From a virus: a stretch of DNA of 64,000 nt. The translations under genes were made by a program, and so were the position numbers. Positions within the stretch are counted from its first letter, which is position 1. Every line of letters begins with the position of its first letter. A model generated the notes under the pieces. That model had not been told where the DNA came from, did no database searches, and worked only from the letters and a program-made list of their open reading frames with translations. Shown here piece by piece: positions 2,353-31,251 of this stretch. The DNA lies in IMG/VR virus record IMGVR_UViG_3300042391_000634, positions 1 to 64,000 of that record. One strand, given 5' to 3'.

Positions 2353-3311
2353 TGAACGATTTAATTTTTATTACAGCATATTGTGAAACTCAAAAACAAG
2401 AAGAGGTTTTAGAACGTTGTGTTAATTCTGTCATAAAATGTGGATACCACATTGCTTTATTATCACATTCACACATATCATTACACATTCAAAAAAAATG
2501 TCAATATTATATGTATGATTATAATAATGACATTTCTAAAGATTATAATTTATTTGGATACACGACATTTCAAATTAATAATAAACAAATACAATCCAGA
2601 TTTTTTAACAAAACATTTTATGGTTTTGCAATATATAGAATGGTCACAATGGCTTGTCAAATTGCAATAAACTTTGGTTACAAAAACATCCATCATATTG
2701 AGTACGATTGTGAATTATTAAACTCAAATTTAATAATTGAAAATAGTAAATTATTAGAAGAATACGATTCGGTGATTTATACCGATAATGGAGATGAAAA
2801 TGGATTTTTATTTGGATCGTTTAAATCTTTTAAAGTTAGTTCATTACCTGAAAAATATAAAAATTACGATAGAGATTTTATCGATAGTGAGATGAGAAAA
2901 CTAAATAAAACGTATTTGGAATATCTAACTAAAAAATTATTTATTGAATCAGGTAATGTGTTATTTAAGAAAGAACCAACAAACGAGGAGTTTAAAAGAG
3001 GTGATTATTTTAATCATAGAAATTTACATTTTACATTATATTATAATCCAGAAGATAAAACTTTAAATATTTTTTACAATGCTTTAGATTTAGGAAAGTC
3101 GGAGGAAATTACCGTAATAATAAATAAAGAAAAAATAGTTAAAATAATAACAAAACCTGCATTTTGGACCACAAGAATTTTAGGTTTATTTAATGAAATA
3201 ATACACGTTAGGGTGGACAATAATAGTAAAATTATTTACGAAATATCTTTTGATAATAAGTTCAGAGAAATTTTTAAAAACAAATCTTATATTTTAAATA
3301 ATGAAAAGTAA
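2352..3311 (+). CDS. Glycosyltransferase-like protein
   Basis: About 319 aa. The N-terminus (LIFITAYCETQKQEEVLERC) resembles GT-A-type proteins that scan a sugar donor, and an acidic HIEYDCELLN segment near residue 117 may be the DxD-like site. No membrane segment is obvious. It shares one base with the upstream stop and is the last enzyme of the cluster. Donor and acceptor are unknown; assignment is by resemblance. Confidence 0.5.
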   Translation: MNDLIFITAYCETQKQEEVLERCVNSVIKCGYHIALLSHSHISLHIQKKCQYYMYDYNNDISKDYNLFGYTTFQINNKQIQSRFFNKTFYGFAIYRMVTMACQIAINFGYKNIHHIEYDCELLNSNLIIENSKLLEEYDSVIYTDNGDENGFLFGSFKSFKVSSLPEKYKNYDRDFIDSEMRKLNKTYLEYLTKKLFIESGNVLFKKEPTNEEFKRGDYFNHRNLHFTLYYNPEDKTLNIFYNALDLGKSEEITVIINKEKIVKIITKPAFWTTRILGLFNEIIHVRVDNNSKIIYEISFDNKFREIFKNKSYILNNEK

Positions 3312-3768
3312 ATTTAACTTTTTCAGGGGGTATGTTGGAACATTAGATATAATGGATGGACAAACATATGCAACAGCATCGTTATATAACCCACATACAC
3401 TTACAAATGACGAAAGAATAGCACAAATCAATAGACGTCTTCAAATAGACGAAGAAATGTGTAATCAAGAAATCATAACTCATGAACAATATATGAGAAA
3501 TAGAGACATGTTAATTGAACAAGAAAGAATAAGAAGATTAGGAATGATAAATCATTCAAGGGAAACCGATAACCAAATTAGATTGTTTCAAGCAACAACA
3601 ACTGTAACCGTAAATCCAACACTATGGACTAAGGTTAAGATATTTGGAACAAGAGTTAAATTGGTTTTAATTGAAACTTGGAAGTTGGAACCTATCGGTG
3701 TTGTGGTGATGACACTGTTAGTGTCAGTTGTTACATTCATAGGTGTAATGAAATTATTCGGAGCATGA
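3301..3768 (+). CDS. FKF-tag protein 1 with C-terminal membrane segment
   Basis: 155 aa, starting MKSKFNFFRG, the first member of the FKF-tag array. The body is charged and helical (residues ~35-95, Glu/Arg-rich) and ends in one hydrophobic segment (VVVMTLLVSVVTFIGVM), so it is probably membrane anchored with the tag in the cytoplasm. Its start overlaps the end of the upstream enzyme gene by 11 bases. Function unknown. Confidence 0.75.
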   Translation: MKSKFNFFRGYVGTLDIMDGQTYATASLYNPHTLTNDERIAQINRRLQIDEEMCNQEIITHEQYMRNRDMLIEQERIRRLGMINHSRETDNQIRLFQATTTVTVNPTLWTKVKIFGTRVKLVLIETWKLEPIGVVVMTLLVSVVTFIGVMKLFGA

Positions 3769-4037
3769 TAAAACCATTCAAATTTTTAACAAAATATGAA
3801 CATCATCGTTTTACTCCTTATTGTTGTTATGATAATGCAAAATTTATTATTGAAACTTTAATATCTACAGATGAATGGGAGACAACCATATTCCCAAAAG
3901 AATACCCACACGAAAATGGTGTATGGAGAGTTCTTTACATACAACGTGGAAGGAATAATTATCATTCCGTTGTTTGTCATGAACCAATAAATCCAGGATA
4001 CATAATTGAAAGATTTATAGTTAATATAGATTTATGA
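3765..4037 (+). CDS. FKF-tag small protein 2
   Basis: 90 aa, starting MIKPFKFLTK. ATG 3765 was chosen because it overlaps the upstream TGA (ATGA) and gives the array tag. The body has several Cys and His (YCCYDN, VVCHEP) but no clear metal motif. Function unknown. Confidence 0.75.
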   Translation: MIKPFKFLTKYEHHRFTPYCCYDNAKFIIETLISTDEWETTIFPKEYPHENGVWRVLYIQRGRNNYHSVVCHEPINPGYIIERFIVNIDL

Positions 4038-4357
4038 TTAGTAGATTCAAATTTTTGACGGATAATGATGAGGATGAAATTCCTGAAGGTTATATCAATT
4101 TAGAGAATGAAAACATTGCAACTTGGATTTGGGAAAGTTTAACACCACCATCAGACACATTATATTATATAGTTTCGGCAGATACTAATGGTATTATTGA
4201 ATTTTTAAGAATGTTTCCGTCAGAGATGATAGTCCCTGTGTGTTCCATTGTTGGTCCAAATGGTGTGGTTCATAACGGTGGAAACGAAGGAAATGGATGG
4301 GGATTTAATATTCAAACCGACCCAATTCACATAACATATTTAAGTTATAACCCATAA
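4034..4357 (+). CDS. FKF-tag small protein 3
   Basis: 107 aa, starting MISRFKFLTD, ATGA-coupled to the previous gene. The body is acidic near the tag (DNDEDEIPEG) and Gly/Asn-rich near the end. No recognised domain. Confidence 0.75.
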   Translation: MISRFKFLTDNDEDEIPEGYINLENENIATWIWESLTPPSDTLYYIVSADTNGIIEFLRMFPSEMIVPVCSIVGPNGVVHNGGNEGNGWGFNIQTDPIHITYLSYNP

Positions 4358-4365
4358 TATTTATA
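4356..4365 (+). promoter_or_regulatory. Late-type motif AATATTTATA
   Basis: AATATTTATA lies 12 bases before ATG 4378. The spacer ATAAAACAAAA resembles those at 50682 and 55635. Confidence 0.5.
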
Positions 4366-4377
4366 AATAAAACAAAA

Positions 4378-4500
4378 ATGTCATCAAAATTTTTTAACAA
4401 TTCACAACAACCTAAAGTGGCTAAAGGAGATAAAAAACCAATACCAACTAAACCAATTAAGAACAATACTCAAATTAAGAAGACGGGAAGAGGTAAATAG
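4378..4500 (+). CDS. 40-aa basic peptide
   Basis: ATG 4378 to TAG 4498-4500 encodes 40 residues starting MSSKFFNNSQQ and ending IKKTGRGK, with 10 Lys. It lies directly behind a late-type motif and directly ahead of a second one. The SKFF start loosely resembles the FKF tag. The Lys-rich, low-complexity make-up would fit a DNA- or head-associated peptide, but that is a guess. Confidence 0.6.
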   Translation: MSSKFFNNSQQPKVAKGDKKPIPTKPIKNNTQIKKTGRGK

Positions 4501-4510
4501 GATATTTATA
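4501..4510 (+). promoter_or_regulatory. Late-type motif GATATTTATA
   Basis: Exact GATATTTATA, 4 bases before ATG 4515. Confidence 0.6.
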
Positions 4511-4514
4511 TCTA

Positions 4515-5357
4515 ATGAGCGGATTAACAACAATTAAATTAAGTAGTGAAGATTTAAAGAAGGAACAAGAACGCCAAAGGAAACGAGGTAAATTGATACT
4601 TAAACAACTAAAAAAAGGTAAGGTTAAGGTTGTTGTTGGTCTATATGATGAAGATGGAACGGTTCCCGATATTATATTTCAATATCAAATACATGATGCG
4701 GAAGTTAAATCAATTGTTGATTATGCCAATGGAGATGTAAATTGTTTAATTATTTGTTTTTATGATGACATTGATATTTTTAACGAAGATGGTAGTGAAA
4801 TAACAGAAAAATTACCTCTTTGGTTAGTTTCAGAAATTGAGAACAAACTTGAAAAAAAGTTTGAACAATTCAATATTGAACTTAGATTTAACCAACAATC
4901 AGGCGGAGGGAAGAAACATATAGTTAATGAAGAAGTGAATGACGACGACCAAAGACTAATTAACAAAACTAGAGTTATTTATAAATTACTCAAAAAAGGT
5001 GGTAAAATGGGGTTCGACTCTGCACCATATTACCACGAAGTACATTGGACATTACCCAATAAATTTTACGTTAAAATTAAACATCATGATAAAAAGGATG
5101 CTGAACGTTATCAATTAAAAGTTGATAGTTATCCTATTTTATTGTTGAACACTGAAACTATAAATTACACCAAAACCAATGATAAACCATTGAGAAATGG
5201 TGAAAAACATTTAATTGCAGGTGAGATTACAACTCAATTTAAAAAATATGGAATAACTGTTTATTGGGGAGGAGAAGTTCCAAAATATTCTATTTTTAGT
5301 CCAAGATCAATATCTCCCGATGAAACGTATACTGAAGTAGACATCACTCCAAAATAA
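4515..5357 (+). CDS. Two-copy KALxKG-domain protein
   Basis: 280 aa. Two copies of a ~110-residue repeat that recurs through the window: a basic helix ending in LKKGK or LKKGG, beta strands with a YxLP-type turn, and a closing F(N/K)xFxI strand (FEQFNIELRF; FKKYGITVYW). Copy 1 spans ~20-125, copy 2 ~155-255. The linker has HIVNEEVNDDD, an (I/V)-N-E site like those in the paralogues. Unlike most relatives it lacks the MKLxDIxxE leader and starts MSGLTTIKLSSED. Function unknown; copies in eight proteins make it a lineage-specific expansion. Confidence 0.75.
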   Translation: MSGLTTIKLSSEDLKKEQERQRKRGKLILKQLKKGKVKVVVGLYDEDGTVPDIIFQYQIHDAEVKSIVDYANGDVNCLIICFYDDIDIFNEDGSEITEKLPLWLVSEIENKLEKKFEQFNIELRFNQQSGGGKKHIVNEEVNDDDQRLINKTRVIYKLLKKGGKMGFDSAPYYHEVHWTLPNKFYVKIKHHDKKDAERYQLKVDSYPILLLNTETINYTKTNDKPLRNGEKHLIAGEITTQFKKYGITVYWGGEVPKYSIFSPRSISPDETYTEVDITPK

Positions 5358-5358
5358 A

Positions 5359-5390
5359 TTTGGATATTCCAAATGGGGGTTGTATATTTG
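5359..5390 (+). promoter_or_regulatory. Bacteroidota-type promoter with GATATTCC element
   Basis: TTTG at 5359-5362, 20 bases, then TATATTTG at 5383-5390, four bases before ATG 5395, so the transcript would be essentially leaderless. The -33 box is part of the inverted repeat TTTGGATATTCCAAA. Confidence 0.75.
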
Positions 5391-5394
5391 TTCC

Positions 5395-5568
5395 ATGAAA
5401 GTAAAAATAACAATTAAATACCACATAGAGGTTGGTAATGAGGTCATTGAGTGTGATTCACTTGAACAGGCTGAACGTAAGATGAAACATATGTCAGATG
5501 TTGATAAGTTTCTTATTAAGACAGAATTAAAGGGTGATGAAGTATTAAATCAATTTTTAATTGGTTAA
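5395..5568 (+). CDS. Small early-type protein
   Basis: 57 aa, starting MKVKITIKYHIEVGNEV. The upstream in-frame TTG at 5380 lies inside the promoter, so ATG 5395 is the start. The sequence (beta strand, helix SLEQAERKMKHM, beta) suggests a small alpha/beta fold. Function unknown. Confidence 0.65.
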   Translation: MKVKITIKYHIEVGNEVIECDSLEQAERKMKHMSDVDKFLIKTELKGDEVLNQFLIG

Positions 5569-5571
5569 TAG

Positions 5572-5581
5572 GGTATTTATA
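5572..5581 (+). promoter_or_regulatory. Late-type motif GGTATTTATA
   Basis: GGTATTTATA, 4 bases before ATG 5586 of the HNH gene. Confidence 0.55.
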
Positions 5582-5585
5582 CCTA

Positions 5586-5909
5586 ATGAATAGAAAGGAG
5601 TATAGGAGACTATTACAGGACCCCAAATGGAAGATAAAGGCTTCCTTCATAAGAAAGAGAGATAACCACACCTGCGTCAGATGTGGGAAGAAATCAAATA
5701 GATTACAGGTTCACCATACCAAATACGAAGATGGTCTAATGCCTTGGGAGTATGATAATGATACTTTGGAGTCATTATGTTCTGGTTGTCACAAAAAAGA
5801 ACATAATATTAAACCTAAGAGAAAGTTTACACCAAGGAAGAAGAAAGAACCTAAATTACAAACAAGGGTTATTAAGATTAAACCGTTTGTTGATTCTCTT
5901 GTTCCCTAA
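5586..5909 (+). CDS. HNH endonuclease
   Basis: 107 aa. Complete compact HNH nuclease: CVRCGK near residue 30, LQVHHTKY (catalytic His pair), then LCSGCHKKEH, giving two CxxC zinc knuckles around a beta-beta-alpha metal site. The C-terminal ~30 residues are Lys/Arg-rich and suit DNA binding. Could be a free-standing homing nuclease or a packaging-associated HNH protein. Its 3' end overlaps the convergent FKF-tag gene by 32 bases. Confidence 0.9.
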   Translation: MNRKEYRRLLQDPKWKIKASFIRKRDNHTCVRCGKKSNRLQVHHTKYEDGLMPWEYDNDTLESLCSGCHKKEHNIKPKRKFTPRKKKEPKLQTRVIKIKPFVDSLVP

Positions 5910-6138
5910 CCCTCAATTCGGTTTTAAAAATTTCAATCCATTCTTGTTTGGATTTACCTTCATGAATTTCAGGTATTTCTATTAGTCCTATTCCTCTTAA
6001 ACAACCTAATGTGTTGATAATGTGACTAGTGGTCATCCAAAAAATAGGTGTGTGCCTGCCGGTTGCTGTTTTCCATACCGTATTGTGTCTATCGTAATTG
6101 ACATCTATTTCCGTTCCTTTAAAAAATTTAAAATTCAT
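5878..6138 (-). CDS. FKF-tag small protein on the minus strand
   Basis: 86 aa, starting MNFKFFKGTE. The only FKF-tag gene on the minus strand; it follows a lipoprotein gene by 8 bases and probably shares its promoter. The C-terminal half (HIINTLGCLRG ... SKQEWIEIFKTEL) resembles that of the gene at 12089 (YIKRIMKLLVTNG ... TATEWYIILDNEL), so the two are paralogues. Confidence 0.75.
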   Translation of the reverse strand: MNFKFFKGTEIDVNYDRHNTVWKTATGRHTPIFWMTTSHIINTLGCLRGIGLIEIPEIHEGKSKQEWIEIFKTELRVREQENQQTV

Positions 6139-6146
6139 ACATTGAA

Positions 6147-7499
6147 TTAATTAACGACAATTTCATTTATAGTTATTGTTCCATCTAAATTACCATTTAA
6201 CGCAAGGAAGGTTAGTTTATTATTAACCTTAAATACTTTTACATAAGCCGGTGTAATTTTAGGAATATCTAAACCTTTATTATAATCCCCCATAACACCA
6301 TTATTATTCTTCCAAAATAATTTATTAATGTTAAGTGAATTTCCAGTTTTTAAAAGTTTACCGGCCCATCCATGTAATATAATATCAGGATAACCATCCT
6401 TATCAAAATCGATAATATCAAATTCTCTGAATTGTAATTGGTCAAATGTATAATCTAATCTATTATTAGAAGGTGTAAAGTTTCCTTTACCGTCACTATA
6501 CCAAATTTCAATACCATTGTAATTTGTTCCCTCTGTTGCAATTGCCAAATCAATATTACCATCTTTATTAAAATCGGCGGCTTTAATTGATGTTGAACCT
6601 CTATCGTCTGTTTTAAATATACCAAGAGGACCTGGATCCTTATCTAATTTATATTTCCCAAGAGTTGAGTTATATGAAAAAATACTAACACTATATCTAT
6701 CGTTTGGTTTTTGAAATGTAGGATTAAAACCATAATCTCCTCTAACAATTTCAGGACGAGAATCTCCATATAAATCTTGAATTAAAACTGCACCGCCGGC
6801 TTTTCCACCATAGAAATCTGAAGGGTCAAATATGTTATTGTTTTCGGTAAATGAACCATTACTATTTTGTGTATATGAATGAAGACCAAGATAATTATTA
6901 CCTTTTGTTCCCATGTGTAACCCTATAACATCAATTAAACCATCATTATTAATATCACCTGAAGATACCGAATGATAAAAACTATTAACGGTTGATATGT
7001 TTGAAAATGAAACTTTACTCCCTTCTGTTTTCATTAAAATTAAATTACCAAATGGCCATGGTTGACCATTTAATTCAGGACCAGAATCTGAAAATACCCA
7101 ACTTTGTTTTGTGGTATCAATACAAGTGTAGTTTCTACCACAACCCATAGAAGCCTCAGGATAACTATTTTCATAAGACCAATTATTATTTGTTTTTGTT
7201 AAATGTAAAGTTGGTATTAATGGATATGTATAAAATAATGTTGCAGGTATAATCAAATGTTCAATGTTATCTTTTTGATATAAAATAACACCAGGTATTG
7301 CCAAATTAACACCTTTAGCCACTATGTCGTTTGTAAAGTTTGGAACATTAAAACCAGATATTACTGTGGTTGTTAATGTATAAGGTGAAGTAGGTGGGAT
7401 CACAACTACAGGAGGTTCAATAACTACAGGGGGGACTACAGATTCCTTCTTACAAGATATTATTAATAAAAATAATATAAAATATAGAGTTTTTTTCAT
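6147..7499 (-). CDS. Exported lipoprotein with FG-GAP/VCBS-type repeats
   Basis: 450 aa. Signal peptide MKKTLYFILFLLIISC ends in a lipobox Cys, followed by KKES and a Pro/Val-rich spacer, the layout of surface lipoproteins in Bacteroidota. At least three Ca-binding FG-GAP/VCBS loops are visible: DINNDGLIDVIG, DFNKDGNIDLAIA, DFDKDGYPDIIL. These build integrin-like beta-propellers. A phage-encoded host-surface lipoprotein could block superinfection or alter attachment; this role is inference. Confidence 0.85.
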   Translation of the reverse strand: MKKTLYFILFLLIISCKKESVVPPVVIEPPVVVIPPTSPYTLTTTVISGFNVPNFTNDIVAKGVNLAIPGVILYQKDNIEHLIIPATLFYTYPLIPTLHLTKTNNNWSYENSYPEASMGCGRNYTCIDTTKQSWVFSDSGPELNGQPWPFGNLILMKTEGSKVSFSNISTVNSFYHSVSSGDINNDGLIDVIGLHMGTKGNNYLGLHSYTQNSNGSFTENNNIFDPSDFYGGKAGGAVLIQDLYGDSRPEIVRGDYGFNPTFQKPNDRYSVSIFSYNSTLGKYKLDKDPGPLGIFKTDDRGSTSIKAADFNKDGNIDLAIATEGTNYNGIEIWYSDGKGNFTPSNNRLDYTFDQLQFREFDIIDFDKDGYPDIILHGWAGKLLKTGNSLNINKLFWKNNNGVMGDYNKGLDIPKITPAYVKVFKVNNKLTFLALNGNLDGTITINEIVVN

Positions 7500-7516
7500 T
7501 TTTTACATTTATAGGA

Positions 7517-7548
7517 CAAAAATAAGGATATTTTTTTGATATTCCAAA
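7517..7548 (-). promoter_or_regulatory. Bacteroidota-type promoter of the lipoprotein gene
   Basis: On the minus strand TTTG (7545-7548), 20 bases, TATTTTTG (7517-7524). GAATAT follows the -33 box. Confidence 0.75.
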
Positions 7549-7586
7549 TATATTTTATAATTTTAACAAAAAAATACTCTATAATA

Positions 7587-7618
7587 TTTGGAATATATTT
7601 AGTTTATACGTATATTTG
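7587..7618 (+). promoter_or_regulatory. Bacteroidota-type promoter
   Basis: TTTG (7587-7590), 20 bases, TATATTTG (7611-7618). The -33 box runs into GAATATAT. Divergent from the lipoprotein promoter about 40 bases away. Confidence 0.75.
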
Positions 7619-7648
7619 TGGTATATTAATTCTAAAACTTACATTACT

Positions 7649-7906
7649 ATGTTATTTAAATACAAAATTACTTTAGATGTGGAGGTTGAGTTTGATGCTC
7701 CATTGTTGGGAACTGATACAACTAAAAACAAAAGAAAACAGGTGGATAGTATTGCAAAAAAAGCACTACAAGAAATGATTAATTTTAAAACAACATCTTA
7801 TGTTGGTGTTAATAGAGAAATTAATGATGAAAATTTAAAAGGTAATTACAAAGGTGAAATTATATTAAGGAGTGCAAAAATGTTTGAAGAAGACAAAAAA
7901 AAATAA
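7649..7906 (+). CDS. Small early-type protein
   Basis: 85 aa, starting MLFKYKITLDVEVEFDAP. ATG 7649 was chosen over the in-frame TTG inside the promoter. Body is beta-rich with a central Lys-rich helix and a charged C-terminus (FEEDKKK). First gene of a rightward run of tiny genes. Function unknown. Confidence 0.65.
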   Translation: MLFKYKITLDVEVEFDAPLLGTDTTKNKRKQVDSIAKKALQEMINFKTTSYVGVNREINDENLKGNYKGEIILRSAKMFEEDKKK

Positions 7907-7907
7907 C

Positions 7908-8042
7908 ATGGCAAAAAGACTAATCCAAAAGAAAATTATCTATCTTAAAACTTTATTAACAGAAACAAAAGGTTTCTTTAAAAGATTACAAATAAAGTTT
8001 TGGATTCGTAATGAAGAATGTAAACTAAAAAAATATAAGTAA
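7908..8042 (+). CDS. 44-aa basic peptide
   Basis: MAKRLIQKKIIYLKTLL... ending ECKLKKYK: a highly basic, probably helical peptide. One base after the previous stop and one base before the next start, so it is in frame with the operon layout. Confidence 0.5.
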   Translation: MAKRLIQKKIIYLKTLLTETKGFFKRLQIKFWIRNEECKLKKYK

Positions 8043-8043
8043 C

Positions 8044-8127
8044 ATGATTGAAGTAATTGTAATTGGATTATACTATGTGTTAGTATTTTCATTATTAAGA
8101 TTTTTTCTAAAATTATTATCCAAATGA
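8044..8127 (+). CDS. 27-aa single-span membrane peptide
   Basis: MIEVIVIGLYYVLVFSLLRF followed by FLKLLSK: one hydrophobic span and a basic tail. Its TGA overlaps the next ATG (ATGA), supporting translation. Confidence 0.5.
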   Translation: MIEVIVIGLYYVLVFSLLRFFLKLLSK

Positions 8128-8375
8128 GTTACATTTTAATTTACATAATAGGATTTATCTTAACACTAACATTCTTAAAGTTATATGGTAAGAAAATGGA
8201 GATTGATTATGATCCACCACATGATGAGGATTATGATGACTATAAAAATAATGCTGAGGCCTATCTATTCTTTTCATTGAGTTGGTTTGTAACAGCACCA
8301 ATGTTTATTGTTGTTGCAACAATTCAGTTGTTATATAAATTCACCCAATGGTTTATGAAATACCCAAACGTATAA
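8124..8375 (+). CDS. Small two-span membrane protein
   Basis: 83 aa with hydrophobic spans at ~2-20 and ~48-70 separated by an acidic loop (YDPPHDEDYDDYKN). Coupled by ATGA to the upstream peptide. Function unknown. Confidence 0.65.
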   Translation: MSYILIYIIGFILTLTFLKLYGKKMEIDYDPPHDEDYDDYKNNAEAYLFFSLSWFVTAPMFIVVATIQLLYKFTQWFMKYPNV

Positions 8376-8376
8376 T

Positions 8377-8577
8377 ATGACACTATTTTTAATTTATTGG
8401 ATACTAACAACAATATACGGAGTATATTGGTTGGTTAAACACCCATCATCAAGACATGGAGATGACAATGATGAATTTACATTATTGGAAGTTATTGCTA
8501 AAATTTTTCCAGCTGGTTTAATAGCTTGGGCAATTGTTCCAATGTTATTATTACATCAGGTTAAATTCAAAAGATAA
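8377..8577 (+). CDS. Small two-span membrane protein
   Basis: 66 aa with spans at ~2-20 and ~43-60 and an acidic loop (RHGDDNDEF). Same topology as its neighbour; probably a diverged duplicate or partner. Confidence 0.65.
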   Translation: MTLFLIYWILTTIYGVYWLVKHPSSRHGDDNDEFTLLEVIAKIFPAGLIAWAIVPMLLLHQVKFKR

Positions 8578-9044
8578 TGACCGACGCACAAATAGTAATA
8601 TCAGTAATTTTTGCTGTGATATTTTTCGTAATTCTTATTTTTAATGTGGTATCATACCCAAACGTGGAGTTATATAAAAAGAAATATGATGAATTGAAAC
8701 GTGGAGTGTATAAGTATGAACCAGATTATGGTGAATCACATTATTTTTATCTATACAGTTACGATATTCATACTCTAACATTTACTCGCACAGATGTTGA
8801 TATCATATTCTTTCTTGATGGTGATATAAAACTATCACATAACTTATACATACACAAAAGTCATTTGTTTATGTCATTAGTTAGTTGGTATTATTGGAGA
8901 AAGTTTCAAAAGTTAAAAGATGAATTGATTAACCAACATAATTTTAATGAGGCATATGCAAGATATAGATTAGGTTATTTGGAATCGTTACAAGAACAAC
9001 CTAAGAAACAAAACAAACTTACCTTCAAATTTTTTAGAGGATGA
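8577..9044 (+). CDS. Membrane protein carrying the FKF tag at its C-terminus
   Basis: 155 aa. One N-terminal span (VISVIFAVIFFVILIFNVV), then a soluble domain with Tyr-rich stretches and a basic helix. The last residues are KLTFKFFRG, the motif that other array members carry at the N-terminus (compare KFRFFRG at 16740 and KFNFFRG at 3301). It overlaps the next FKF gene by ATGA. Confidence 0.7.
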   Translation: MTDAQIVISVIFAVIFFVILIFNVVSYPNVELYKKKYDELKRGVYKYEPDYGESHYFYLYSYDIHTLTFTRTDVDIIFFLDGDIKLSHNLYIHKSHLFMSLVSWYYWRKFQKLKDELINQHNFNEAYARYRLGYLESLQEQPKKQNKLTFKFFRG

Positions 9045-9424
9045 TAATACCATTTAAATTTTTTGTGGGGAAGGTTTATACCGATGAATTTGAATTTCCA
9101 AGAGTAAGGAGATCTCCAGAACATATAGGTAGAGGATATATTCAAACAATCTTACCGACCGAACCATATCTTGCAACACTACCAGAACCCAACTACGATG
9201 GATTTGTTATCAGTCGTGTAAGAACTAAAATGAGACGAAATATAAATTGGAGAGGATATGAAACTTCTATACAAGAAAGAAATGGTGAGGTAATAATATT
9301 AAAGATTGTAAGTGGTATAAACATTGGTGGAATGTTTCACATAGTTTATTTAATTACAAGAGACGGGAATACTGAAAATTATAGAGTAAGTGTCCCATTA
9401 GTCAATTTACAAAGAAGAGGATAA
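9041..9424 (+). CDS. FKF-tag small protein
   Basis: 127 aa, starting MIIPFKFFVG. The body is Arg-rich (SRVRTKMRRNINWRGYE) with later beta-type strands. ATGA-coupled upstream. Function unknown. Confidence 0.75.
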   Translation: MIIPFKFFVGKVYTDEFEFPRVRRSPEHIGRGYIQTILPTEPYLATLPEPNYDGFVISRVRTKMRRNINWRGYETSIQERNGEVIILKIVSGINIGGMFHIVYLITRDGNTENYRVSVPLVNLQRRG

Positions 9425-9425
9425 T

Positions 9426-9689
9426 ATGGCAAAAGCAAGAAAGATTTTATCAAACACTATAAGTGAATTGTTAAAAGAAACATCGTTGGAAACAAGAATT
9501 AAAATGTCATGTTGGTTTATGATTAACAATCTTATTCATGAATCAGGCGCAAGAGAAGAATCTGCGTGGGACGAAACAAATCCAAGAGATATTGAGATGA
9601 TGAAACTATTGGACGATAAAACAAAAGAACTAACGGAAACAATATTAAGAAACATTAAAGAATGGGAAGAAGATGGTAAACCAATTTAA
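9426..9689 (+). CDS. Small helical protein
   Basis: 87 aa, largely helical and charged (ISELLKETSLETRIKMSCW; LLDDKTKELTETIL). No FKF tag. Its last codons and stop lie inside the start of the next gene (17-base overlap). Confidence 0.65.
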   Translation: MAKARKILSNTISELLKETSLETRIKMSCWFMINNLIHESGAREESAWDETNPRDIEMMKLLDDKTKELTETILRNIKEWEEDGKPI

Positions 9690-10014
9690 ATTTTTTGAGG
9701 GGAGACCAAAAAGATTATATCACTACGACCTATTGGTTGGGGGTATGCCTGTTGAGGTAATAACTTCAAACGAACCACCAACACATTTTTTTTCTGGTCC
9801 CACACAACATCATAGTTTTTATGTGGGAGTTCAAAATACACAATTAGAATTAATTTATGATGGCGATATGGATGAATTATCCGTTAGAGCAATGGTAGAT
9901 GAATTAAAATATAGATATATAAATTATATATCAATTAATGAACAGGTAATTGGATTTATGGAAGATTTTTTAAATGAACATTTAGATGGAACATCAACAA
10001 TAAGATACATATGA
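9673..10014 (+). CDS. FKF-tag small protein
   Basis: 113 aa, starting MVNQFKFFEG. The upstream stop TAA is read out of frame from its Phe-Lys codons. Body unrelated to known families by eye. Confidence 0.75.
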   Translation: MVNQFKFFEGRPKRLYHYDLLVGGMPVEVITSNEPPTHFFSGPTQHHSFYVGVQNTQLELIYDGDMDELSVRAMVDELKYRYINYISINEQVIGFMEDFLNEHLDGTSTIRYI

Positions 10015-10541
10015 TAAAACCTTTTAAACTACTTAATGGATACACATATATAAATGAGTTGCATGAACCATATATTCCGTTGCAGATAACACATGCACCA
10101 CCATTTGGTATATCACATCGTCATTGGAATATGTTGCCACGGGATTTGAGAGGTGGAACCCTAATACATATGGAAATATACATTGAGGGGTGGGAAGCTG
10201 GTCGCAATAATATCACCATCAATCCATATGAAGGTATCATCAATGACCCTGTGGTTACTGAATGGATTGAGTTGTGGAATAGAGGACATTTGAGGTGGTC
10301 TGGTAGAACAGGAATGAATTATGTTAATGTAAATCCCGACCCACCAATAGATGAAAGATATCCGGAATTCTATAACACAGATGAATTAATATTCTTTGAT
10401 GTAACGGAAGAAAGATTAGGTATGCTTGACGGTGAACCATATAAAGTTATGTTGTTCAGACATATTGAAGAGGGAAATACAATAGAAGGAGATACAATAT
10501 ATCCCGAACATCCAATGTATAATTTTCCTGATATAATTTAA
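10011..10541 (+). CDS. FKF-tag protein with RMF-like motif
   Basis: 176 aa, starting MIKPFKLLNG (a FKLL variant of the tag). Residues ~57-95 contain YIEGWEAGRNNITINPY and, further on, a W(I)ELWNRG element, matching the G(Y/W)xAG...NPY...WxxG pattern of ribosome modulation factor. The C-terminal half is acidic and Pro-rich. A ribosome-directed role is inferred from this motif only. Confidence 0.7.
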   Translation: MIKPFKLLNGYTYINELHEPYIPLQITHAPPFGISHRHWNMLPRDLRGGTLIHMEIYIEGWEAGRNNITINPYEGIINDPVVTEWIELWNRGHLRWSGRTGMNYVNVNPDPPIDERYPEFYNTDELIFFDVTEERLGMLDGEPYKVMLFRHIEEGNTIEGDTIYPEHPMYNFPDII

Positions 10542-10554
10542 AAAACAAAATAAT

Positions 10555-10719: not shown

Positions 10720-10720
10720 T

Positions 10721-10951: not shown

Positions 10952-10952
10952 T

Positions 10953-11132: not shown

Positions 11133-11133
11133 T

Positions 11134-11328
11134 ATGAATATCATTTCAAACCCAAGCGATTTATTAAAACACTTATCCTTCTGGCATAACAAAACAGATG
11201 ACGAGTGTATTGAAATGGCAACAGGTGAATTTGGCGTTGATGCTGAACGAGCATTAATTAATATACTTGAAAGAGATTTCTGCACCAATATTAATAATAA
11301 TGTAATTGAAAAATTAAAAACATTATGA
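11134..11328 (+). CDS. 64-aa small protein
   Basis: Starts MNIISNPSDLLKHLSFW; helical and acidic. Its stop overlaps ATG 11325 of the next peptide (ATGA). Function unknown. Confidence 0.6.
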   Translation: MNIISNPSDLLKHLSFWHNKTDDECIEMATGEFGVDAERALINILERDFCTNINNNVIEKLKTL

Positions 11329-11471
11329 CACCAAGAGAAAGAAAATATCACATAAACAAACGTCTTCGTAAATTACTTTGGGAAGAAATAACAAGAGTAA
11401 TTGATGAGGACATTGAAAATCAATTAAATGGTGGCAAACCTAATCTAGACATTCAACCAATGACAATATGA
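11325..11471 (+). CDS. 48-aa helical peptide
   Basis: Starts MTPRERKYHINKRLRKLLW and ends LDIQPMTI. Basic N-terminal half, acidic middle. Linked at both ends by ATGA overlaps (11325, 11468), which is good evidence that it is translated. Confidence 0.6.
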   Translation: MTPRERKYHINKRLRKLLWEEITRVIDEDIENQLNGGKPNLDIQPMTI

Positions 11472-11701
11472 AAACATTTAAGTTCCTCTCAAAGAAACAA
11501 ATACAAGTTCCTATACCCAATAGATATAGTAGTTTAAGTCCTGAGGATAGAAACATATACACAAAAGGATATTATGATGCATTTGATTGTTATAATCATA
11601 GTCGTTCGTTAGAATCACCATACAATCCACTTGTGGAAGAATATGAGTATGAATTATGGAGAGAGGGAGTTACGATGTATGAACGAAATAATAATGCATA
11701 A
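11468..11701 (+). CDS. FKF-tag protein with RMF-like motif
   Basis: 77 aa, starting MKTFKFLSK. Body has YTKGYYDAFDCYNHSRS, then SPYNP and later ELWREGV, the Gly-aromatic...PY...W..G pattern of RMF-type proteins. Nearly the whole body is this motif, so it is effectively a tagged RMF-like domain. Confidence 0.7.
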   Translation: MKTFKFLSKKQIQVPIPNRYSSLSPEDRNIYTKGYYDAFDCYNHSRSLESPYNPLVEEYEYELWREGVTMYERNNNA

Positions 11702-12099
11702 TGATTAAGGACTTCAAATTTTTTCAAGGTAAAAAAGAAAGAATAAATTGGCAACTAACCGGTTTATTAGATGATGCAACAAATGTTCCATTATTGATTG
11801 GTGTATTGGACATCACATACAAATATATTCAGGATAATAATTTAATAGATAATAATAGGGTTAATAATATATTGATTATTGTTATGACCAAATTATACAG
11901 AGACAAATATAATTCTTATAGTGATTATGATATTAGACGTAAGATTGATGAGGTTGCGGTTCATACCAATAGTGTAACAATAAGAAGATACATACAAGAA
12001 CTTGAAGAGGGTGCTTGGATGAGTATTGATGTTGAAGCGGAGATTAATCATATTATTTATGAAAAATGTAAATGGGAAGAACATGACTATGGATTTTAA
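11701..12099 (+). CDS. FKF-tag helical protein
   Basis: 132 aa, starting MIKDFKFFQG. The body is mostly helical (LLIGVLDITYKYIQ; IRRYIQELEEG). Its stop lies inside the tag codons of the next gene (ending YGF). Confidence 0.75.
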   Translation: MIKDFKFFQGKKERINWQLTGLLDDATNVPLLIGVLDITYKYIQDNNLIDNNRVNNILIIVMTKLYRDKYNSYSDYDIRRKIDEVAVHTNSVTIRRYIQELEEGAWMSIDVEAEINHIIYEKCKWEEHDYGF

Positions 12100-12301
12100 A
12101 TTTTTTAAAGGGACACCTCCACCTAAATGGAGAACATACGGTGGATTGATGCATCCATTGGAAACCATAAGCACAAATTATATCAAACGAATAATGAAAC
12201 TTTTGGTAACTAATGGTACATTGCCTAATCAAAAAGATGGGAGAACGGCAACCGAGTGGTATATTATATTAGATAATGAATTAAAAAGAAGAAATGATTA
12301 A
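12089..12301 (+). CDS. FKF-tag small protein
   Basis: 70 aa from ATG 12089 (MDFKFFKGTPP); ATG 12083 would add two residues. 12089 is preferred by analogy with 14250 and the minus-strand gene at 6138. Paralogue of the latter: both have a FKFFKGT start and a (Q/T)EWxxxxxxEL end. Confidence 0.7.
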   Translation: MDFKFFKGTPPPKWRTYGGLMHPLETISTNYIKRIMKLLVTNGTLPNQKDGRTATEWYIILDNELKRRND

Positions 12302-12641
12302 ACCATTTAAATTCTTTTCAGGGATAAAAATACAATATATTCTAATAATCACCAAGGATACCGATACAACGTACAGCATCCCATTAGATATGTATGGACA
12401 TATAATGGAAGTTGCGGTGGGTTTACACAGGGAGAATATGATATTATTTTCACCAGTAGAGTATAGAGTAGAAAACGAAATTGGTGAGGGAGTAACTTAT
12501 TTCTATATGATAAATAATATTGTACCATATTTTAATATAACTAATAGAATAATGATAGAATATAGTGTAAAGTTTCCTGATACAGAATATTATTGTGATT
12601 TTACCACTCAAGAAAATATATCCTTATATGAAACCATTTAA
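12294..12641 (+). CDS. FKF-tag beta-rich protein
   Basis: 115 aa, starting MIKPFKFFSG. Body of alternating hydrophobic strands. Ends YETI, where the ETI-stop is read out of frame from the next gene's MKPFK codons. Confidence 0.75.
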   Translation: MIKPFKFFSGIKIQYILIITKDTDTTYSIPLDMYGHIMEVAVGLHRENMILFSPVEYRVENEIGEGVTYFYMINNIVPYFNITNRIMIEYSVKFPDTEYYCDFTTQENISLYETI

Positions 12642-12993
12642 GTTCTTCCAAAATAATATAAAAAGAAAATGGTATTTAAGGAGTGACCACCTCGGTCAAA
12701 TACAATGGATGTATAGACCTGTGGGGGTAATATTCTATATGGAAAATAGATGGGATGGAAATTTTTATACAGAGGAGATGAAGACAATGACGGTGACGGC
12801 TACAAGTAGATATATGTACTCATACAATCAGTTTATGGAAATGAATAGGGATAATATTATATTTGCATATGAATTCGTGGACAATGCAGATATAAGTAAT
12901 ATGATACATTATAACGAAGATAATTTTGATGATATGCCAAGGGATAGACGACTAATATTTAGAGGAGTAATAAGAAATAATGAAACCATTTAA
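12628..12993 (+). CDS. FKF-tag small protein
   Basis: 121 aa, starting MKPFKFFQNN. ATG 12628 was chosen for the tag; 14-base overlap with the upstream gene. Met- and Asn-rich body, ending NNETI for the same overlap reason. Function unknown. Confidence 0.75.
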   Translation: MKPFKFFQNNIKRKWYLRSDHLGQIQWMYRPVGVIFYMENRWDGNFYTEEMKTMTVTATSRYMYSYNQFMEMNRDNIIFAYEFVDNADISNMIHYNEDNFDDMPRDRRLIFRGVIRNNETI

Positions 12994-13453
12994 GTTCTTC
13001 CAAAAAGAAGATTATTTTCTTTCAATAGCAAGAAGAGGTGCGGGGAGAACCATCGCTCAAGACCTTGTGCCGGTTCAACCATTGGGCTCACCTGATAATG
13101 ACCTTCATATTCTTAGGAATTCACTATACGGTGCACTGCGTACAAGAGAATGTGCGGTAATTGCATCATCCATCCGAAATTTTAATAATTGGAGAAATGA
13201 AACATTTGACAGAAGTAGTGTTTTCATTATAACCAATAGAGATTTCACACATACTAATGGAAATAACAATCAAACCACAAGATACAGGGCAATAACGCGA
13301 ATTGATGATTGTTATGGACTAATGTTCGATGATTATATTTTAACGGATAGAATCCACGATATATTATCAAGCGGATATAATGAAACTATAGACCATATTC
13401 ACCAACTAGTTGATGAGGTTAACCTACACACAAGAAACAATGAAACCATTTAA
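12980..13453 (+). CDS. FKF-tag small protein
   Basis: 157 aa, starting MKPFKFFQKE. Body contains an Arg/Ala-rich helix and a NRDFTHTNGNNNQTTRYRAI stretch. Ends NNETI inside the next tag. Its first ~22 bases are nearly identical to those of the gene at 12628. Confidence 0.75.
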   Translation: MKPFKFFQKEDYFLSIARRGAGRTIAQDLVPVQPLGSPDNDLHILRNSLYGALRTRECAVIASSIRNFNNWRNETFDRSSVFIITNRDFTHTNGNNNQTTRYRAITRIDDCYGLMFDDYILTDRIHDILSSGYNETIDHIHQLVDEVNLHTRNNETI

Positions 13454-13745
13454 ATTTTTTAGAACCCCTTTTAACCCAAGACAATACGATCTTGATTCAT
13501 TTACATTCATCGGTGTTAGTCCCATTAAAACTCATGAAGATGTTCAAGGAAGGTATAGAACAATGATTTTTATGAATAATGATACACGTCTACCACTCAC
13601 TGGAAATTTAATACACGAACACGAGGAAGCATTCCATATGGCGGACATAATTGAAATAAGGGGAAATCAAATATTCCAATTACCAAGACAAGAGGCGGAA
13701 TATATAAACGTAACATTAACATTCACACCAAATGAAACCATTTAA
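13440..13745 (+). CDS. FKF-tag small protein
   Basis: 101 aa, starting MKPFKFFRTP. Mixed alpha/beta body, ending NETI inside the next tag. Function unknown. Confidence 0.75.
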   Translation: MKPFKFFRTPFNPRQYDLDSFTFIGVSPIKTHEDVQGRYRTMIFMNNDTRLPLTGNLIHEHEEAFHMADIIEIRGNQIFQLPRQEAEYINVTLTFTPNETI

Positions 13746-14037
13746 GTTCCTAACCAAACCAAATACAATCAATTACGAAGGTGAGTGGTCACGACATGTT
13801 ATTGGAATAGTTTATGATTATATTAACAATAGATATAGAGACACATATATATCAGAAACATTTGATGCTAAATATATTATTACCGAAACAACATATGAAC
13901 TCGGACAATTATCACGTGCTGTTGTTAAAGTATATCCTAATAGAGATACTAACATGATAATAACATATTGGGTAACCGTGGTAAACACATTTGCATTCAT
14001 AACACAACATAATGTTGAACACTATGCGACCATTTAA
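13732..14037 (+). CDS. FKF-tag beta-rich protein
   Basis: 101 aa, starting MKPFKFLTKPNTINYEGEW. Paralogue of the gene at 17167 (FKFLTKNDTINFHG start, same strand order, both with a YPxxxxNxMxTY segment). Ends YATI inside the next tag. Confidence 0.75.
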   Translation: MKPFKFLTKPNTINYEGEWSRHVIGIVYDYINNRYRDTYISETFDAKYIITETTYELGQLSRAVVKVYPNRDTNMIITYWVTVVNTFAFITQHNVEHYATI

Positions 14038-14260
14038 ATTCCTAAACGATAATAAGAAAGATGATTTTCTTATCCCAACGATGGATGAAATTGCTAACGC
14101 ATTAATTGTTGGAAGAGAAGCATATCTAAATGGACATCCGGTAGAATATAATCCTTTTTTAAGACAACAAACATTTGACGCATTTGACGAGGGATGGGAA
14201 TTAGAACATTCATATGATATATTAAGAGACGCACAACAAAGAGCAAACAATGGACTTTAA
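14024..14260 (+). CDS. FKF-tag protein with RMF-like motif
   Basis: 78 aa, starting MRPFKFLNDN. Body: LIVGREAYLNGHPVEYNPF followed by FDEGWELEHS, an RMF-type G..A...G....NPF...GW arrangement. The stop is read from the MDFKFF codons of the next gene. Confidence 0.7.
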   Translation: MRPFKFLNDNKKDDFLIPTMDEIANALIVGREAYLNGHPVEYNPFLRQQTFDAFDEGWELEHSYDILRDAQQRANNGL

Positions 14261-14582
14261 ATTCTTTCAAAAACCAAAACCAATACAACCACCAGGTAAT
14301 ATGTATCTGATGTTTAATATGGATGATGCTCTAATCAATGTGATAAGATGGTTACAATATCATAATTGGGAAATATTAAATAGTGAAACATATATGTCTC
14401 AGGTGAATGTACCAATCAATAATTGTTTTATAAGGATAACGAGTTGGAGAAGACATATTAATCCACCAATAAGAGTTCAAATAAAATATAGTGTGTTTGA
14501 AGCAAACACATTTTCAAGAAATTTCACATTTATTATGAATGAAGAAGAATTTTTAAGAAGAATAGATATAACAGGAATATGA
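14250..14582 (+). CDS. FKF-tag small protein
   Basis: 110 aa, starting MDFKFFQKPK, followed by a Pro-rich linker and an alpha/beta body with aromatic residues. ATGA overlap with the next gene. Confidence 0.75.
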   Translation: MDFKFFQKPKPIQPPGNMYLMFNMDDALINVIRWLQYHNWEILNSETYMSQVNVPINNCFIRITSWRRHINPPIRVQIKYSVFEANTFSRNFTFIMNEEEFLRRIDITGI

Positions 14583-14812
14583 TAAAAGAGTTTAAATTTT
14601 TAAGTAATAACAAATCAATAGGAACTAATACTATTCCATATCCTGATGATTTAGTATGTCCTTTAATGAGAGAGGTATATAAGGCTGGTTATTTATGTGC
14701 AATGGTGGGAAATCAGATAAGTGATAATCGTTACGCAAATACACAATATGCTTATATGTGGAATAGAGGTTGGATTGATTACCAAATGCAAACTGTAAAT
14801 GAGAGAGTTTAA
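14579..14812 (+). CDS. FKF-tag protein with RMF-like motif
   Basis: 77 aa, starting MIKEFKFLSN. Body: YKAGYLCAMVGNQISDNRY then MWNRGWIDYQ, matching RMF-type spacing. The stop lies in the next gene's REFKFL codons. Confidence 0.7.
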   Translation: MIKEFKFLSNNKSIGTNTIPYPDDLVCPLMREVYKAGYLCAMVGNQISDNRYANTQYAYMWNRGWIDYQMQTVNERV

Positions 14813-15122
14813 GTTCCTAAGAAATCCTTTATTAGTTACCATTGATGGGAAATCAATCTATCCGGGGACATTATTCTATAGTATGAATAAGATATGTATA
14901 ATATTACCAAGGAAGATAACACCCAAATATACAATAGTAACAAGATGTATCCATCCAATTTATAAGGATGTATTCAAACCTGATTACGATACATTAATGT
15001 ATTTCAGCACAAAAGAATCTGCCGAGTTCTATAAGAGTAGATTAATACATTGGGATGAACACGTTATTGGTGGTGAGGTATTCCATAACAACGCTGACAT
15101 AACATTAACATTTAGAAGATGA
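14799..15122 (+). CDS. FKF-tag small protein
   Basis: 107 aa, starting MREFKFLRNP. Beta-rich first half, then a FSTKESAEFYKSRL helix. ATGA-coupled to the next gene. Confidence 0.75.
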   Translation: MREFKFLRNPLLVTIDGKSIYPGTLFYSMNKICIILPRKITPKYTIVTRCIHPIYKDVFKPDYDTLMYFSTKESAEFYKSRLIHWDEHVIGGEVFHNNADITLTFRR

Positions 15123-15511
15123 TAAGACAATTTAAATTTTTATCGGGAGTGAAATCCATGTTGGATATGTATGGTAGAGAAATCAACTCAAATAACTATA
15201 GAACCATCAGTATAACCGGCAATATTCGTTTTCTAAAAGAATACCATAGAAGATTGGATTGTATTTATATTTCACATTATAATATGTTTAATGAATATCA
15301 TCCATTATTTAATGAATCGGTAGATTTATATAATAGAACGGTTGGATTTATAGAAGGAGGTCACATAACAACCCACGAAGAGATAAGGAGATTTGTTCAT
15401 AGCGCCTATTCAGATATGGTATATGGGATATTTGACCAGTATGAAATAGGTGGGGCAACAAATCAGGAGATATTAGTTGATACATATAACTTTATAAACC
15501 CAAGACGATGA
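15119..15511 (+). CDS. FKF-tag helical protein
   Basis: 130 aa, starting MIRQFKFLSG. Helical body with many Tyr and His. Last gene of the main FKF run. No known family recognised. Confidence 0.75.
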   Translation: MIRQFKFLSGVKSMLDMYGREINSNNYRTISITGNIRFLKEYHRRLDCIYISHYNMFNEYHPLFNESVDLYNRTVGFIEGGHITTHEEIRRFVHSAYSDMVYGIFDQYEIGGATNQEILVDTYNFINPRR

Positions 15512-15535
15512 TAAAGATTTTAAATACCTGAAGAT

Positions 15536-15545
15536 GATATTTATA
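15536..15545 (+). promoter_or_regulatory. Late-type motif GATATTTATA
   Basis: Exact motif, 4 bases before ATG 15550. Confidence 0.6.
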
Positions 15546-15549
15546 TAGG

Positions 15550-16395
15550 ATGAAATTAATGGATATATTATTAGAGGATTGGGAAGATGATTACCGAAAT
15601 GTATCTCATAAGCTTAAACTTATGTATAAATTACTTAGAGTAGGGTCGGTTAAAATTAGTAAATTAATACCTGATTTTGAGACACCATTTTGGACAGGAT
15701 TTGATTGGATTGAAGATGGTGATGCATTGATAACATATGAACTACCAAGCGAATATCATTTAATACCTGGTAGTATAACTAGCATATATAGAATAGTAAT
15801 AAGAGGTATAACTATTAATTGTGAAAAATATCCAGCGTTAGCTGATGACATAGATATTAGGGAAGATTTATTAAGATATATTTTACGTAGAATTGAAAAT
15901 TATCTAATACCTACACTCCAAGAGGGAGACGAAATTGAGTTTAGTATAAGAAAAAAACATGAAGAGAATATTATGTTTAAGAATGTCGTAAATGAAAGTG
16001 TTGTTGATGATAAAGAAAATGATTATGATACCGTTGTTAAAAAGGCACCAACAATTTTCAAAGCACTCAAGAAAGGTAAGATAACAATGGAGGTTGATGC
16101 AATAAGATTATTTTATCGAGGTGCAACGGACCCACAAAAATACACATTTGATTATGATTTAGGAGATGTATACATTGTTGAAACAGATCCATTTGAAAAT
16201 AACTACAATGTTAAAGTTTTAATACCGGCAATTAAAATTAACTGTGACGAAAACCCAAATTTAAATAATATTCAAACAATTAAAATGGACATTCTTAATA
16301 TTGTTAAGAAAAAATTTAACAACTTTGGATTGAACATTATTCTTAGAGCAACAAAATTTCGTTTAAAACATAATGGAAAGTGGATTATACCTTAA
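15550..16395 (+). CDS. Leader-bearing two-copy KALxKG-domain protein
   Basis: 281 aa. Leader MKLMDILLE then D, with L-L-E at residues 7-9. Copy 1 (~18-140) is divergent (YKLLRVGS ... YELPSEYHL). Copy 2 (~165-275) is typical (TIFKALKKGKI ... FNNFGLNIIL). The linker has FKNVVNESVVDD, a V-N-E site. Both leader and linker fit a T4-like (I/L/V)-x-E protease rule, so the product may be cut into two domains during head maturation (inference). Confidence 0.75.
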   Translation: MKLMDILLEDWEDDYRNVSHKLKLMYKLLRVGSVKISKLIPDFETPFWTGFDWIEDGDALITYELPSEYHLIPGSITSIYRIVIRGITINCEKYPALADDIDIREDLLRYILRRIENYLIPTLQEGDEIEFSIRKKHEENIMFKNVVNESVVDDKENDYDTVVKKAPTIFKALKKGKITMEVDAIRLFYRGATDPQKYTFDYDLGDVYIVETDPFENNYNVKVLIPAIKINCDENPNLNNIQTIKMDILNIVKKKFNNFGLNIILRATKFRLKHNGKWIIP

Positions 16396-16639
16396 TATAT
16401 AAATCCTCAGGTTTAGGTGGTTTTATTTCAAACACAACTGGTCTTTTCTTTTCCCATTTCTCTAAAATCTGTTGAGCCAAGGACACCATAGCCCTTTCAT
16501 AGTATTCCTCACCATATATTGGGACGATTATACTTTTATACATGTCTAATGTATCTGAAATGTTGAGACTATCAACTTTCTTTTTAACCGTGATGGTTTC
16601 ACTAAAATACTTATACGATAATGAGATTGGTATATTCAT
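16385..16639 (-). CDS. Small early-type protein
   Basis: 84 aa, starting MNIPISLSYKYFSETITV. Beta-type N-terminus, then a helix (ERAMVSLAQQILEKWEKK) and Pro-rich end. Expressed from its own leaderless host-type promoter against the direction of its neighbours. Function unknown. Confidence 0.7.
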   Translation of the reverse strand: MNIPISLSYKYFSETITVKKKVDSLNISDTLDMYKSIIVPIYGEEYYERAMVSLAQQILEKWEKKRPVVFEIKPPKPEDLYIKV

Positions 16640-16643
16640 TCCA

Positions 16644-16676
16644 CAAATATACTAGAATATTCTAGAATATCACAAA
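16644..16676 (-). promoter_or_regulatory. Bacteroidota-type promoter
   Basis: On the minus strand TTTG (16673-16676), 21 bases containing TTCTAGAATATTCTAG, TATATTTG (16644-16651), ending four bases before ATG 16639. Confidence 0.7.
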
Positions 16677-16681
16677 TAAAG

Positions 16682-16690
16682 TTATCCACA
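16682..16690 (+). promoter_or_regulatory. DnaA-box sequence TTATCCACA
   Basis: Perfect match to the classical DnaA box, just upstream of the -33 box of the minus-strand promoter at 16644-16676. Confidence 0.5.
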
Positions 16691-16739
16691 TTTAAAATCG
16701 TGTTTTTAAATCTCGAATATTTTTATTATATTTAATGAT

Positions 16740-17162
16740 ATGTTGTCTAAATTTAGATTTTTCAGGGGTATAGTTAGTGCAAGGATTGTCAGTATTGATG
16801 GTGCTTTAGAAAGACTAACAAGGACACCTGTTAGTCATATTCCAATACCCGATACTCTTACAACCTTAGTAGAGATACAACAATTTAGGGCAGGATGGAG
16901 ATCGTGTGAGTTTGGAAGAAACATATACGATAATCCATATAGTAATAGAGAAGCTCTAATATATTCATTACATAGAGCATGGGAATATGGATTTACTGAA
17001 TGTTTTAATAATAGAAGAGTTAATAGAGATGAAGAGGTTTATTTAGAAGGATGGGCGACAGCTCAATTAGGGTTACCATTAAATGAAAACCCACACACAT
17101 ATGGTTCAAACCAATTTAATATGTGGTATATAGGATGGAATGACTTTGTTGATAATCATTAA
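16740..17162 (+). CDS. FKF-tag protein with two RMF-like motifs
   Basis: 140 aa, starting MLSKFRFFRG. Two RMF-type units: FRAGWRSCEFGRNIYDNPY...AWEYGF (~45-85) and YLEGWATAQLGLPLNENPH...WYIGW (~100-135). A tandem tagged RMF-like protein is not something I know from described phages. Confidence 0.7.
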   Translation: MLSKFRFFRGIVSARIVSIDGALERLTRTPVSHIPIPDTLTTLVEIQQFRAGWRSCEFGRNIYDNPYSNREALIYSLHRAWEYGFTECFNNRRVNRDEEVYLEGWATAQLGLPLNENPHTYGSNQFNMWYIGWNDFVDNH

Positions 17163-17166
17163 AAAT

Positions 17167-17493
17167 ATGCGAGACTTCAAATTTCTTACCAAGAACGATA
17201 CAATAAACTTTCATGGACAAATGTCCATTGAAGCGCTCGGATATTTTGATGATTACGTTAATCGTATAATTAGATATGAAATCACAACAACAACCGCAAC
17301 ATATAAGATAGCAGATTACACTTATGGTGAAGGTAACGTTGTGGCGGGAACCGTCAACGCATATCCATTAGATGCTCCCAATATCATGGTCACCTACACT
17401 ATAAGGGGTGGAGAGATTACATCACATACAATACATATAGATTATTGGAATACGATGGGGCAATTGATAAATACAATAAGACGAGAGGATTAG
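17167..17493 (+). CDS. FKF-tag beta-rich protein
   Basis: 108 aa, starting MRDFKFLTKNDTINFHG; paralogue of the protein at 13732. ATG 17167 was chosen for the tag. Beta-rich body with a TATYKIADYTYG stretch. Confidence 0.75.
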   Translation: MRDFKFLTKNDTINFHGQMSIEALGYFDDYVNRIIRYEITTTTATYKIADYTYGEGNVVAGTVNAYPLDAPNIMVTYTIRGGEITSHTIHIDYWNTMGQLINTIRRED

Positions 17494-31217: not shown

Positions 31218-31251
31218 CTGAACTAAACTTACGAACCCACCTATCTAAAAC

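Follow-up and report, generated by a model that had tools for sequence, protein, structure and literature searches.

A short terminal peptide shared by an array of small phage proteins: a candidate docking motif

Why should 22 small phage proteins, whose bodies mostly do not resemble each other, begin with the same few residues? The question is raised by the first 64,000 nucleotides (here called the window) of the 335,630-base virus record IMGVR_UViG_3300042391_000634 from IMG/VR, in which an array of genes encodes proteins carrying the peptide FKF(F/L)-x-(G/K/N), hereafter the tag. Here we report a computational analysis of this array and its relatives, according to which the tag is best read as a terminal docking peptide (a short linear motif) for one shared partner; we put the probability of this reading at roughly 55%. 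A portable docking peptide is favoured over shared descent because the peptide is conserved, linkers are swapped, the tail is predicted to be disordered, the tag occurs at both termini, and one body family has untagged members in other phages. Should the tag dock to one partner, knowledge of that partner would assign ~170 otherwise unannotated small proteins to a functional class in one stroke, and more such proteins could be sought by means of the tag. The phage would then be able to build host-takeover proteins from plug-in modules.

The tagged array and its relatives

The start-anchored tag, M-(0-3)-F[KRN]F[FL], was found in 21 of the 111 window open reading frames (ORFs) of at least 60 aa, where 0.028 were expected (binomial P = 6e-54). 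Beyond residue 9 of those ORFs the motif was seen once (1.1 expected), and this sole copy is also terminal. All 22 ORFs listed by the sequence-only reading that drew attention to the array are present, each with the tag at its start, including variant cores at 3301 (FNFF), 10011 (FKLL) and 16740 (FRFF). The array is interrupted by ~15 untagged ORFs and contains an HNH endonuclease gene. Its tagged genes are given below by window coordinates and strand (pLDDT, predicted local distance difference test).

3301-3768, plus: tag MKSKFNFFRG; hydrophobic C-terminal segment around residue 132, of the tail-anchored type; family of 13
3765-4037, plus: tag MIKPFKFLTK
4034-4357, plus: tag MISRFKFLTD; model with residues 1-15 at pLDDT <50 and a confident, beta-rich body
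5878-6138, minus: tag MNFKFFKG; body akin to that of 12089
8577-9044, plus: N-terminal membrane anchor, C-terminal tag (...KLTFKFFRG, then stop)
9041-9424, plus: tag MIIPFKFFVG; model with residues 1-48 at pLDDT <50 and a confident body; linker exchanged among relatives
9673-10014, plus: tag MVNQFKFFEG
10011-10541, plus: tag MIKPFKLLNG; RMF-like segment; linker EPYIPLQIT, tentatively similar to YAPYVPLQLT of the capsid protein
11468-11701, plus: tag MKTFKFLSK; RMF-like motif
11701-12099, plus: tag MIKDFKFFQG; relatives include chimaeras with the C-terminal end of 14799
12089-12301, plus: tag MDFKFFKG; body akin to that of 5878
12294-12641, plus: tag MIKPFKFFSG
12628-12993, plus: tag MKPFKFFQN
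12980-13453, plus: tag MKPFKFFQK; residues ~13-58 match the T4-type major capsid protein (residues ~72-127 of the phage's own, Gol-like region)
13440-13745, plus: tag MKPFKFFRT
13732-14037, plus: tag MKPFKFLTK; akin to 17167
14024-14260, plus: tag MRPFKFLND; RMF-like motif
14250-14582, plus: tag MDFKFFQK
14579-14812, plus: tag MIKEFKFLSN; RMF-like motif
14799-15122, plus: tag MREFKFLRN
15119-15511, plus: tag MIRQFKFLSG; linker YGREINSNNY, similar to the linker of the 10011 body in G001
16740-17162, plus: tag MLSKFRFFRG; two RMF-like segments; a relative (L087:11198-11644) matches PF04957 at 4.5e-5, under its cut-off
17167-17493, plus: tag MRDFKFLTK; akin to 13732

The record has further tagged genes at 303 kb and 323 kb, beyond the window. 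The same tagged gene (MKKFLFFRGYV...) is repeated at both contig ends (window 3-269, genome 335395-335630), so the array probably runs on across the record ends, and the record is probably complete or circular.

This giant phage encodes a T4-type major capsid protein (gene start 124971, 591 aa; PF07068, 1.8e-63) and a prohead protease (PF03420, 5e-21). Among annotated capsid proteins, the closest come from Microcystis phage Mel-JY01 and Flavobacterium phage immuto, the best match overall belongs to a 484-kb uncultured phage without annotation, and no near DNA match was found in the named phage set. Pattern and protein scans recovered at least 16 more IMG/VR contigs that each have at least two tagged ORFs and in some cases 16-17, and the start-anchored DNA pattern had dozens of matches in 12 array-bearing contigs and zero in the control. 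The array is missing from most of nineteen phages whose capsid protein is 74-87% identical, their pattern counts equalling the control; the exception, G011, has two true tagged genes, a pair only. The scan of related phage genomes, proposed earlier as a check, found the tag enriched within a clade of related phages. The ~170 tagged proteins comprise ~25 body families plus singletons. Protein searches with 13732 and 12980 returned weak matches only, and a search of genome contigs gave no match for the 10011 family.

Tag, linker and body

The first reading held that the codons of the tag vary synonymously while the peptide is kept, and this was borne out by 40 distinct 12-mers in 158 genes, with the codon usage of the tag equal to that of the bodies. 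Changes in the F-K-F codons were 362 synonymous versus 121 non-synonymous. In family pairs with a body identity below 70%, identity was 90% in the tag, 41% in the body and 30% in the linker. A translation-start or DNA-level explanation is ruled out by the codon usage of the tag and by the C-terminal tags described below.

Family alignments show the tag, then a hypervariable linker, then a conserved body. One body occurs on different linkers and one linker on different bodies: a GYVYxDEY-type linker is found on the 9041, 10011, 3301 and 12980 bodies and a REINS-type linker on the 15119 and 10011 bodies, as judged by inspection, most of these short matches being under BLAST significance. In AlphaFold models of two families (4034 and 9041), the tag and linker had pLDDT values below 50 and the bodies were confident, which suggests that tag and linker are probably disordered. 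A Foldseek search of both models against the PDB gave no match at E<=1e-3.

The tag is not confined to N-termini. Membrane proteins with an N-terminal hydrophobic segment end in the tag (the 8577 family and others, in several phages), the 3301 family has the reverse layout with the tag first and the hydrophobic segment last, and G001 (L077) has two small C-terminally tagged ORFs without an obvious anchor. The function of the tag is thus not restricted to the nascent N-terminus. At 8577 and 9041 a C-terminal tag is followed by an N-terminal one in the next gene, the tag codons being 29 nt apart, and this arrangement is kept in other phages. Such a pair, together with the alternating F-K-F-F, would also fit a short beta-zipper in which tags bind each other and thereby gather all tagged proteins into a single body or fibre. 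Against this rather unlikely alternative stands the length of the tag, only ~4-7 residues, since described amyloid signalling motifs are longer. These motifs, with which such an assembly may be compared, are likewise short and shared, going by one account of them (PMC8086366).

Two body families are, by sequence comparison, pieces of the T4-type major capsid protein. The ~60-residue body encoded at 302925 of the record corresponds to residues 348-407 of the phage's own capsid protein (Pfam PF07068 1.6e-13, hhalign 6.5e-19), and the ~45-residue body of 12980 corresponds to residues ~72-127 (hhalign 4.4e-6, 87%; Pfam 0.0011, below the cut-off); in both the full-length capsid fold is absent. No reversed or shuffled decoy reached 0.01 in the hhalign controls. 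The 12980 body overlaps the N-terminal gp23 region carrying Gol, whose borders are approximate here. In T4, Gol binds EF-Tu and is called the most conserved part of gp23, and a 29-residue piece binds EF-Tu (PMC3014915). The likeness is to that N-terminal part of gp23; unlike in T4, it is here a separate small tagged protein, for which EF-Tu binding is a candidate function. A third capsid segment, the YAPYVPLQLT-like one of the 10011 family, is tentative only (hhalign probability 16%).

Another group of bodies is RMF-like (10011, 11468, 14024, 14579 and 16740). The best match to the RMF family PF04957 (4.5e-5, 23.9 bits versus a cut-off of 27.9) is below the Pfam threshold, and the motif is common to several families. 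Otherwise, Pfam, PHROGs, NCBIfam and PADLOC gave nothing useful for the bodies beyond Gp23 and RMF/CrpP-like signals. A phmmer comparison of all bodies with 200 ORFs of the phage gave no sign of pieces of other virion proteins: apart from the capsid protein and the fragment at 302925, nothing exceeded the reversed decoys. The earlier description of the bodies as unrelated was too strong and needs correction for 5878 and 12089, for 13732 and 17167, for the RMF-like group and for the two capsid-protein pieces.

Tag and body are separable. In body-only searches with the tag removed, the intact homologues without the tag or a close variant of it (MEYKFFHG, MRKFRMFRG) came down to the capsid protein itself and a single paralogue; all further untagged rows were ended by a contig edge or came from chance tag-like ORFs. 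The family of the paralogue has 36 tagged and 24 untagged members. The tagged capsid-fragment gene is preceded by 33 of the 36 tagged members and by none of the 24 untagged relatives, some of which adjoin dUTPase- or clamp-loader-like genes (neighbours named by eye). A conserved two-gene unit (G000, 302925-303399, minus strand; L107, L108, L109, L233, L237-L288) consists of a tagged VEFCFQF protein and a tagged 60-aa capsid-protein fragment, and in several relatives lies within a sugar-nucleotide/glycosyltransferase region.

These observations bear on two explanations in which the tag is no address. One ancient family, with the tag as its best-kept part, would account for the related bodies and for the similar beta strand in which several of them end. 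It is very improbable, as the tag occurs on helical RMF-like and capsid-derived bodies, on beta bodies and on a membrane protein, is separated from the conserved body by a non-conserved linker, lies outside the fold in the models, and is missing from the untagged relatives of one family. A by-product of gene birth, in which a 5' end made up of start codon and tag, prone to recombination, spreads by duplication and captures fragments and the tag is functionless, would be consistent with the linker shuffling, the chimaeras, the capsid fragments and the HNH endonuclease gene. The peptide, however, is kept as codons drift, across families with less than 50% body identity, and is present at C-termini, so that we consider this explanation quite improbable.

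The virion question and the TATTTATA box

The sequence-only reading named the virion as one possible destination of the tag and knew of no described system of this kind. The latter statement was too strong, as the T4 internal proteins are known as a varied group with nothing but a capsid targeting sequence in common (PMC3012670). That sequence, on diverse internal proteins, is the nearest known kind, although its defining features were not found here. The two systems are alike in that small diverse proteins (in T4 IPI, IPII, IPIII and Alt) have a short N-terminal targeting peptide in common, with counter-defence bodies in T4 (PMC3012670). By analogy, the tag could load small proteins into the prohead for injection into the next host, and the T4-type capsid protein, the prohead protease and the two capsid-derived bodies would agree with this.

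T4-type and giant-phage propeptides are cleaved after X-X-E (PMC5694885). Protease-type sites ([AILS]xE) are depleted in residues 4-22 of tagged N-termini (33 observed versus 52 expected), whereas an xxE site is present in all 18 N-termini of the window's two other N-terminal motif classes and is of the [AILS]xE type in 17. Across the genome, a TATTTATA box lies 3-7 nt ahead of the start codon in several structural genes and often in genes of these two classes (e.g. 119593, 122913, 145003, 159575; window 15550, 42494). It is presumed to be a late promoter giving almost leaderless mRNA, and could alternatively be a translation signal. The box is upstream of none of the 27 tagged genes of the phage, compared with 19 of the 56 other window ORFs (P=2e-4). 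This speaks against a virion address, as does the lack of prohead-protease sites past the tag; C-terminal and membrane-protein tags, the far larger number of members and the shuffled linkers further distinguish the array from the T4 internal proteins. We therefore regard virion cargo as unlikely. The giant-phage head paralogues gp53 and gp54 of SPN3US, with identical N-terminal propeptides, likewise combine a common N-terminus with diverged bodies (PMC5694885); unlike the tag, theirs have cleavage motifs ending in E, and they are virion proteins.

The first of the two other motif classes, MK(L)(L/M)D(I/L)(I/L)xE(D/N), belongs to larger proteins (window 15550, 18951, 19784, 21498, 21952, 26510 on the minus strand, 42494, 44070, 46935 and 48155). 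KALKKGxxxYELPDEY domains recur in many of these, a TATTTATA box directly precedes most of the genes, and the motifs are candidate capsid-targeting sequences. The second, (I/V)xI(T/S)ExQLxx(I/M)IxE, stands on unrelated bodies (window 42979, 45693, 48689, 50098, 59156, 60120 and 61021, of which 50098, 60120 and 61021 are on the minus strand), often with a TATTTATA box and an xxE site.

A probable docking peptide and its possible use

The address idea stands in so far as the tag is a portable peptide (conserved at the peptide level, with a variable, predicted-disordered tail, separable, at either terminus and clade-enriched); its virion version is not supported. Under the docking reading, each protein would have three parts: the tag, a disordered linker that differs in length and is swapped within the family, and a compact body. 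The tagged proteins would be produced outside the presumed late TATTTATA-box gene set, probably by early or middle expression, and the free tag would plug into a single cytoplasmic partner. The bodies would have various tasks, with host takeover or counter-defence the likeliest, and membrane-anchored members, with the tag distal to the anchor, could hold the partner or a complex at the membrane. Bodies may have been acquired by adding the tag to useful proteins, such as capsid pieces, RMF-like domains and a protein that is untagged in the replication or nucleotide neighbourhoods of other phages.

Several points weigh against this reading. The shared partner is a proposal from sequence and models, and so short a motif could also act by binding to itself. 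The family members were first recruited by the tag itself, a bias partly corrected by the body-only search and the survey of untagged relatives. Absence of the box is weak evidence for genes inside operons, where read-through is possible, and the shallow alignments (10 and 7 sequences) could alone depress the confidence of the modelled tails.

One known partner of terminal peptides is the T4 sliding clamp. The C-termini of gp43, gp55 and gp33 have the same architecture, a conserved terminal epitope after a divergent linker, interchangeable among unrelated proteins (PMC2988020). Their epitopes are hydrophobic and acidic, whereas the tag is basic-aromatic, and neither the phage's DNA polymerase B (146785) nor protein 133469 (gp55-like by eye) has FKFF at its C-terminus. 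A clamp-binding function of the tag is accordingly scarcely probable.

A concrete lead comes from the tagged pieces of capsid protein, which might act as decoys or competitors, since bacterial immunity is known to be triggered by capsid proteins, according to one report (PMC9712102). A more elaborate version, which we hold to be rather improbable, is a modular toolkit in which a plug peptide and shuffled tethers present changing bodies, including capsid pieces, of which one overlaps the Gol region that binds EF-Tu. Expressed separately from the structural genes, these bodies would act as decoys or competitors towards the sensors by which the host detects phage proteins, while docked to a shared hub that would sequester or destroy whatever they bind.

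Elsewhere in the window, a strand switch was observed at 30977-38878 (minus strand), where in many ORFs the stretch ahead of the probable start contains shared leader-like text (such as MVCxIxxLPLxSKxNxM), which suggests a repeated promoter or leader element.

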